Source of the DNA: Globisporangium splendens
Taxonomy: Eukaryota; Oomycota; Peronosporomycetes; Pythiales; Pythiaceae
DNA length: 64,000 bases
Assembly (NCBI GenBank): GCA_006386115.1
Contig: VFIW01000113.1
Location: forward strand, 62,001-126,000
Reading direction: 5' to 3'
Made by a program: the position numbers and the translations under genes. Numbering within the stretch: position 1 is the stretch's first letter; the number at the start of each line of letters is the position of its first letter. This document shows, piece after piece, positions 49,854 through 50,903 of the stretch. A model generated the notes under the pieces. It was not told the origin of the DNA, searched no databases, and saw only the letters and a program-made list of their open reading frames with translations.

Positions 49854-50903
49854 ATGAAGCGATCAAGCGACCAAGTGAAGCGCGAAGAACGGCCCGAGCC
49901 AAAGCGGCAGCGGACGACTCCCGACTTGTACGACATCTCCGCTATTCGCAAGAAGCGTGGAGGACGTCGGTTCTACAAGGAGTTGTTCTTCCTCTGGCGC
50001 AAGATGTCCGGCAGCGACGATCCAGGCCAGTCCAGCACAGCGAAGTTCGAGTCGTGGAAGACGTTTGTCCGACTCGAGAACGAGCATCTTGTCGAGCGTT
50101 TGCTAGGGAACCTAGAAGGCACGTTCGAGAATGACCATAAAGAGCTTGGCTCTCGTCGTTCTAGTGCTCGCAAGAGCACTACAAGCTCTGCTCGTAGCTG
50201 TGAACCACGTCGGGAACATCAGACTGAAGAGTCTCTCGAGGTTCCCACGTGTCTGAGTCCGGTGGATAGCCAAGCCACCGTACTCTGTAGAAGCGTTGAC
50301 GGTTCAACGACTTCTCTCCTCGACGACGAGTCGATCGATCCTCATGATCGACTATCGACTCAACGATCCAACGGCGCTCTCCCTGATGATCGATCAGAGG
50401 AGGTGGGGTTGAACGCGAAAACGATTGAGCGACTCTGGAAGTGGAAGAGTGCTCACCGCGCTCAGATCGAGGCTCTTGAAGTCCACAACGCGGTACTCGA
50501 AGACCGGTGCGAAAGCCTCGAAGACCGGTTGAAGGAGCAGGAGTCGAAGATCGACTTGCTGTTCGATGGTCTTGCCCAGCGTTCGGCAATGGAGTCACGT
50601 TTCGAACAGAGGTTCGAGAAGATTCAAGCCGAGCTTGAACGACTCCAGAAGGCTGAGAAAGCTCGTGATGCGTATCACGAACGTCTACTGCGCTCTGTGG
50701 AAGAGGCAGGGGCTTCTCTTGAGATACTTCGGAAGGAGTATCATGGTCGCCTTCTCGCGTTGGAGACAATAAAGGACGAGTCCTTTGATGTGCTTCAGCG
50801 CCTTTATGCCGAGAAGAAGCTCCATGGCGATGAGTTACAGACTCTTCGCGAGCTGGTGGAGCGACTTCAGGATCAACTTGATCATCCGTCAAGGGCTCTA
50901 TAG
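49854..50903 (+). CDS. Antisense ORF of element D, intact 349-aa coiled-coil protein
   Basis: Uninterrupted from ATG 49854 (MKRSSDQVKREERPEPKRQR) to TAG 50903, opposite to pol D. Residues ~1-22 are very basic (possible nuclear-targeting or nucleic-acid-binding tail). About 38-85 form an aromatic block (RRFYKELFFLWRKMSGSDD, SWKTFVRLENEHLVERLLG). About 90-185 are Ser/Thr/Asp-rich and probably unstructured. From about 190 (TIERLWKWKSAHRAQIEALE) to the end is a long coiled coil with regular Leu/Glu/Arg heptads. Compared with A-C, many residues differ yet the frame, start, stop and heptads persist. About the first 110 codons lie between the pol stop (50179) and the LTR; the rest overlaps the pol linker and chromodomain. 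An antisense promoter in or near the LTR would be required. Function unknown; no signal peptide or membrane segment. Confidence 0.7.
   Translation: MKRSSDQVKREERPEPKRQRTTPDLYDISAIRKKRGGRRFYKELFFLWRKMSGSDDPGQSSTAKFESWKTFVRLENEHLVERLLGNLEGTFENDHKELGSRRSSARKSTTSSARSCEPRREHQTEESLEVPTCLSPVDSQATVLCRSVDGSTTSLLDDESIDPHDRLSTQRSNGALPDDRSEEVGLNAKTIERLWKWKSAHRAQIEALEVHNAVLEDRCESLEDRLKEQESKIDLLFDGLAQRSAMESRFEQRFEKIQAELERLQKAEKARDAYHERLLRSVEEAGASLEILRKEYHGRLLALETIKDESFDVLQRLYAEKKLHGDELQTLRELVERLQDQLDHPSRAL

Follow-up and report, generated by a model that had tools for sequence, protein, structure and literature searches.

The window analysed here, a stretch of 64,000 nucleotides from the oomycete Globisporangium splendens (contig C19, positions 62001-126000), contains at least six gypsy copies, from three families, that bear a gene antisense to pol. 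In one of them, element D, this gene is intact, as the preliminary description of the window had reported: the genome copy reads from ATG to TAG without an internal stop across 349 antisense codons. By the order RNase H, integrase, SH3 and chromodomain in its pol frame, together with its long terminal repeats (LTRs), element D is a chromodomain Ty3/gypsy element, and its parts, in coordinates of the window, are the following.

49854-50903, forward strand: intact antisense gene of D with 349 codons (uninterrupted reading frame; substitution tests)
50179-52989, reverse strand: pol frame of D, with RNase H, integrase, SH3 (Tf2-1) and chromodomain (Pfam scan)
50188-50370, reverse strand: chromodomain of D pol, opposite antisense codons of about 112-173, which are predicted to be disordered
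50371-50925, reverse strand: linker between SH3 and chromodomain of D pol, with the antisense coiled coil encoded opposite
49098-49777, reverse strand: 3' LTR of D, outer end approximate, common to the 5' side of element C
55350-56001, reverse strand: 5' LTR of D, ends approximate

The 3' LTR has its inner edge at 49777 (..CATTACA; the sense junction is AAGGGAGGGATGA followed by TGTAATG), and the antisense ATG, 76 nt beyond it, thus belongs to the internal region rather than to the LTR; the distance of about 75 bp given in the preliminary description was right, and its placement of the start inside the 3' LTR was not. The antisense open reading frame (ORF) has 325 nt outside pol, which ends at 50179, and about 725 nt opposite the chromodomain and the linker, and it terminates near the end of the pol SH3 domain on the opposite strand. 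The same frame is present in the related elements A, B and C, as had also been described, and in all three it is damaged, so that only D has it intact.

The phase between the two genes is identical in 67 of 68 copies, with antisense position 2 facing pol position 3 and antisense position 3 facing pol position 2, the exception being the frameshifted A, and this fixed phase makes two hypotheses, constraint on the antisense frame and constraint on pol, separable. After exclusion of A, L023 and L028, 65 copies remained for the codon alignments; some of the copies are mosaics, e.g. P0015, L031 and L035. The ratio of replacement to silent substitution rates (dN/dS) was obtained by a counting method on seven pairs of representatives from three lineages only (D; F, which is P0026-like; and A-C), with dS near 1, and thus close to saturation, in the comparisons with D. 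By antisense codons, the gene was partitioned into a part outside pol (1-107), a part opposite the chromodomain (112-186) and a part opposite the linker (187 to the end).

Outside pol, the antisense dN/dS was 0.24-0.41 in all seven pairs, against 1.25-3.08 for the pol-phase control in the same pairs, and the bootstrap intervals of the antisense ratio were 0.21-0.60, 0.20-0.59 and 0.09-0.51 in the three pairs tested. In the linker, the seven pairs gave 0.31-0.40 for the antisense frame and 1.75-2.84 for the pol frame, with bootstrap intervals that excluded 1 for both frames in three of three pairs. Opposite the chromodomain the roles are reversed, as dN/dS in pol was 0.31-0.40 for six pairs and 0.68 for the remaining one, against 1.27-3.08 in the antisense frame. 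The sole other frame with consistently low values outside pol and in the linker has the antisense wobble position in common, and its mean stop counts are 1.26 outside pol and 8.55 in the linker. In a four-class overlap test, each change in the overlap was sorted by its effect in both frames. Per-site rates in the linker were 0.37-0.51 for changes silent in the antisense frame and replacing in pol and 0.14-0.18 for changes replacing in the antisense frame and silent in pol, a ratio of 2.5-3.3 in five of five pairs (lower limits 1.68-2.28); in the chromodomain the ratio was 0.29-0.36 in four pairs, with upper limits below 1 in three and of 1.06 in one. By these substitution patterns, every stretch is constrained in a single frame, which is the antisense frame for the N-terminal part and the coiled coil and the pol frame for the chromodomain. 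Purifying selection acts on the antisense frame, beyond what constraint on pol can produce. The overlap-aware dN/dS on collected copies, which the preliminary description had proposed, thus finds the antisense frame constrained both outside pol and in the linker, and the explanation that it had set against a gene, namely variation fully accounted for by constraint on pol, fails.

The draft genome of G. splendens, 53.3 Mb of which 40% was masked as repetitive (PMC7163027), was searched in the form of 53,310,241 bases in 195 contigs. With the D protein at least 117 matches were obtained, 100 of them stop-free in the matched part (best 116 of 474 candidates), and with the related P0026 at least 114, of which 105 had no stop (best 114 of 480 candidates); the two lists overlap, some of their rows are fragments of single copies, and, as they hold the best-scoring candidates, they are biased toward intact copies. 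A sample chosen through another part of the element consisted of the 57 D-family copies (92-100% identity) that scored best on a 300-residue piece from the integrase region of D pol. An antisense match was present for 44 of these 57 among the listed D-protein matches, near full length in 40 of the 44, and by this sample the antisense gene is kept in most copies; the other 13 may be truncated or may lie below the score threshold of the list. Stops were absent from 32 of the 40 near-full-length antisense matches and present in the integrase-region piece itself in 10 of the 57 copies, as would be expected if both genes decay at like rates after insertion, both counts being taken from score-ranked lists. 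Of the 65 aligned copies, which were chosen by protein score, a choice favouring open frames, 62 contain no antisense stop outside pol and 64 contain none in the linker, and the remaining frames outside pol have mean stop counts of 1.26-4.60 each.

Sequence comparison places related antisense genes at the same position in at least three gypsy families, and the further members in the window are listed below.

10874-11940, forward strand: antisense gene of element A, disrupted by one frameshift and one stop (alignment of copies)
22605-23680, reverse strand: antisense gene of element B, with a short duplication at the start that puts the ATG out of frame with the remaining codons (alignment of copies)
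42822-43889, forward strand: antisense gene of element C, with one premature stop (alignment of copies)
37460-38830, reverse strand: related antisense gene of the distinct gypsy element E, with a shorter C terminus than copy L067
about 31578-32069 and 38954-39445: LTRs of element E
9839-10303, reverse strand: C-terminal coiled coil of an L066-type antisense gene, adjoining the element A insertion (88% identity over 96 aa to P0086)

Copy L067 of the E family has an open antisense frame of 614 residues, opposite which there is a chromodomain match of 23.7 bits, just under the Pfam cut-off of 25.1. L066 has an open antisense frame of 565 residues opposite a pol that terminates in a chromodomain, and in this second family the comparison of L066 with L075 gave an antisense dN/dS of 0.42 (0.27-0.63) outside pol over 375 codons. 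The antisense gene of L074, 38% identical to that of E, likewise lies opposite a chromodomain, and a stop breaks its frame further upstream. The families have in common a disordered N-terminal part, an aromatic helical domain with the pattern L(F/Y)D.S..I ... FY..LF ... (A/S)W..FV, and a C-terminal coiled coil. In hhalign comparisons, the D and L066 families were aligned with a probability of 86% (E 5e-6), in an alignment of which a part lies opposite the chromodomain and could be due to pol; a third group of loci was aligned to E/L074 at 98% and to L066 at 95%, and D against E/L074 alone was weak. The D protein search listed at least 80 proteins, mostly of G. splendens, and among the others listed seven homologues at 42-47% identity span 95-98% of the D protein; a profile of the other families reached G. 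ultimum (P0100, P0101) and one protein of Phytophthora fragariaefolia (P0105).

Relatives of the helical domain also occur at L068, L069, L070, L071, L072 and L073, several of them with a C-x-V-x(n)-C-x-x-C cluster. Roughly 4 kb at each of these loci showed no recognisable gypsy pol, and they may represent host genes or old remnants. At L072 there is an RNase H-like ORF as well as a D-type antisense piece; at L071 the domain relative neighbours a Crinkler N-terminal domain and an EML-type WD40 protein (1-876 and 2562-4001), and in L073, at 2358-3668, an OrfB/TnpB-like gene (PF07282, PF12323; PF01385 below cut-off) adjoins it in this oomycete genome. The relative at L068 was also considered as the ORF1 protein of a long interspersed nuclear element (LINE), which lies upstream of ORF2 in LINE copies, and this was rejected as the copy numbers disagree: the LINE endonuclease piece has at least 36 full-length matches of at least 96% (best 97 of 360 candidates scored), and the neighbouring ORF at L068 has near-identical copies at two places only (all 41 candidates scored). 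A high-copy LINE (C125:313002-314306 and elsewhere) has at least 99 endonuclease-piece matches and open frames to about 1850 residues, with reverse transcriptase matches beside several of these frames.

Three features can be recognised in the predicted D protein, all encoded on the forward strand.

49902-49913, forward strand: basic motif KRQR, resembling a nuclear localisation signal, codons 17-20 (motif scan)
49971-50084, forward strand: aromatic helical domain, codons 40-77 (FYKELFFLWR..SWKTFVRLENE; family alignment, AlphaFold2)
50388-50897, forward strand: coiled coil predicted at the C terminus (codons 179-348), facing the pol linker (AlphaFold2, heptad score)

A basic motif of this kind may import proteins into the nucleus. 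For D, AlphaFold2 gave a small helical domain at 38-85, a low-confidence part at 88-178 and a single helix at 179-348 with a predicted local distance difference test (pLDDT) score mostly above 90, at an overall mean pLDDT of 74 and a predicted template modelling score of 0.31; the chromodomain is encoded opposite the low-confidence part, which suggests disorder, and the linker opposite the long helix. None of 2000 shuffles reached the heptad score of D, and with the AlphaFold2 helix this upholds, as a prediction, the coiled coil named in the preliminary description. The L066 prediction (mean pLDDT 52) has its helical domain at about 251-412, followed by a helix at 491-547.

Upstream of the ATG there is a candidate promoter. 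In oomycetes, the initiator YCAYTYY is located at the start site, and the flanking promoter region (FPR) motif MWTTTNC follows two bases on (Roy et al., PMC3599244).

49837-49843, forward strand: initiator motif TCACTTT, fitting YCAYTYY, 17 nt upstream of the D ATG
49846-49852, forward strand: FPR-like AATTGAC, 6 of 7 positions
38841-38847, reverse strand: initiator TCATTTC of the E family, at -17

Among the 68 related copies, YCAYTYY stands at exactly -17 in 61, is displaced in two (in one by the B duplication) and is absent in five, and it is found at -17 also in E and L067, which belong to a separate family. As a background, 10 of the 2159 ATGs in the window have an initiator at -17 and 87 have one within 45 nt, the antisense starts included. 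In an ungapped comparison of D with three copies, one each of F, A and C, agreement was at 13-15 positions within the 20 nt directly upstream of the ATG and at 18-19 within the 45 nt upstream of those. The FPR match is 6 of 7 in D and A and lower in others.

Codon-level purifying selection, the many copies and the presence in at least three families bear out the earlier proposal of a protein gene antisense to pol, and we are close to certain that this is a real protein-coding gene. That it is, as a whole, an accessory gene of the element with an oligomeric and probably nuclear product appears likely to us. As to mechanism, we make a tentative proposal from sequence features and analogy, which is slightly more apt to be wrong than right. 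The initiator at -17 would act as the gene's own oomycete core promoter and might allow its expression apart from the LTR-driven gag-pol transcript; the product would oligomerise through the coiled coil, enter the nucleus via basic motifs such as KRQR and use the aromatic helical domain to bind nucleic acid or chromatin, and might there regulate or assist the element, as has been proposed for the antisense ORFs of Grande and Retand. We give an even chance to the further idea that an old antisense gene of regulatory or assembly function, standing in the oomycete chromodomain gypsy, has shaped pol, such that the long and quickly changing linker would exist because of the coiled coil encoded opposite; it comes from linker and helix being both longer in D (185 aa and 170 residues) than in L066 (97 aa and 57 residues), that is, from two families only.

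A frame that is open by chance, only because pol codons avoid antisense stops, would agree with the long frames that are frequent on both strands across the window. This seems extremely improbable, however, given the low antisense dN/dS in the 325 nt without an opposing pol, the free evolution of pol in the linker where the antisense frame is constrained, and the related proteins at the same place in additional element families. An antisense transcript that works as RNA, by double-strand formation, silencing or interference with gag-pol, has been raised for plant elements in a review (PMC7264820) and would fit with the initiator motif, the frame being incidental; but selection tracks codon positions and preserves amino acids, which an RNA role alone would not do, and we consider this role very improbable. 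The product could also be a structural or assembly factor, binding Gag or serving as a ribonucleoprotein scaffold, rather than a nuclear regulator. The predicted 170-residue helix with heptads and the lack of a recognised DNA-binding domain are compatible with such a factor, whereas the basic motifs that several distant members have close to the N terminus, and a separate promoter-like site that suggests expression apart from Gag, make it rather unlikely. We see a similarly small chance that the gene was captured from the host, with the related loci that have no nearby gypsy pol as its cellular source: at L070, L071 and L073 no scanned opposite or neighbouring ORF matched a pol family (about 4 kb each, with some ORFs of at least 130 aa left unscanned), but the element-borne members are the numerous ones.

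Several points weigh against an accessory gene with an oligomeric nuclear product. In the chromodomain part, the bootstrap intervals include 1 for the antisense frame in two of three pairs and for pol in one of three, and the fifth pair of the four-class test, L059/L035, had few changes and an interval of 0-4.2, with no difference. Neutrality was not rejected for L066 vs L075 opposite pol (0.66; 0.31-1.69), nor for E vs L067 (0.66; 0.40-1.12). The FPR half of the promoter has no exact match, L066 has no upstream initiator, and in L074 the initiator is at -34. None of the antisense proteins scanned contained a Pfam family over cut-off and no fold match among solved structures (PDB) was found for the antisense protein, so that neither domains nor fold suggest an activity; the strict motif K[KR]x[KR] is missing in 3 of the 11 members scanned, and in P0086 it is present only near the C terminus. 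In addition, the gene models behind the NCBI protein names are AUGUSTUS predictions with transcriptome hints (PMC7163027).

By position, the gene belongs to the known aORF-3R kind, with which it shares the location of an antisense gene between pol and the 3' LTR and the presence in many copies. This kind comprises Grande gene23, RIRE2, Retand (TRP28, PF04195), PvRetro13 and the brtn of Botrytis Boty, all of unknown function, and for Grande a promoter upstream of the antisense gene and a nuclear product have been reported (PMC7264820, PMC11963269), in line with the earlier remark that plant LTR elements such as Grande bear antisense ORFs. The oomycete gene differs in that about two thirds of it overlaps pol (a term search did not find the word "overlap" in the excerpts of these two papers), in its host, and in that codon-level selection was measured on both strands. 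Retand belongs to a non-chromovirus lineage, whereas element D has a chromodomain, and PF04195, the TRP28 domain, was not found in the D protein (P0001) at E up to 1 or in 29 relatives at E up to 0.01. HBZ of human T-cell leukemia virus type 1 and other retroviral antisense genes are similarly located near the 3' LTR. HBZ is a bZIP factor whose transcript starts in the 3' LTR (PMC10186651, PMC3185765); in D, however, the LTR contains neither the start codon nor the initiator, both of which lie in the internal region, no sequence relation was found, and no bZIP family was listed for P0001 at E up to 1. Among oomycete Ty3/gypsy elements, Chronos also has a chromodomain, and it carries an extra RNase H (aRNH) (PMC5348765), whereas neither PF00075 nor PF13456 was found in D or B pol at E up to 0.001; the excerpts of this oomycete retrotransposon survey have no occurrence of the term "antisense". 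The protein family and the reciprocal overlap look new.

Elements C and D have a common LTR at about 49098-49777 and form a chain of LTR-internal-LTR-internal-LTR (42094-56001), which suggests recombination between adjacent copies, and an additional inverted LTR copy is located at 56832-57484. Element A has no detected 5' LTR and meets the 5' LTR of B (16753-17397) head to head (region 10144-24404). Apart from gypsy elements, the window contains two adjacent choline-transporter-like genes (PF04515; 1226-5245), whose DNA is 79% identical over about 1 kb, and Copia-type elements (RVT_2, gag_pre-integrs) at 25501-28036 and 60224-63806.

In the literature excerpts, antisense genes of LTR elements appear as open frames whose function is unknown and whose selection at the protein level is not tested, and whether the antisense frame of human immunodeficiency virus type 1 is a gene has long been debated in the excerpted reviews. 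Here, one gene combines a stretch free of overlap, a stretch opposite an unconstrained sense protein and a stretch with the roles reversed, in more than 100 copies and several families, and this layout makes selection on the antisense gene directly measurable and provides a clean case of opposite genes dividing one sequence between them. The mobile elements of a plant-pathogenic oomycete also gain a protein family for which Pfam has no model.
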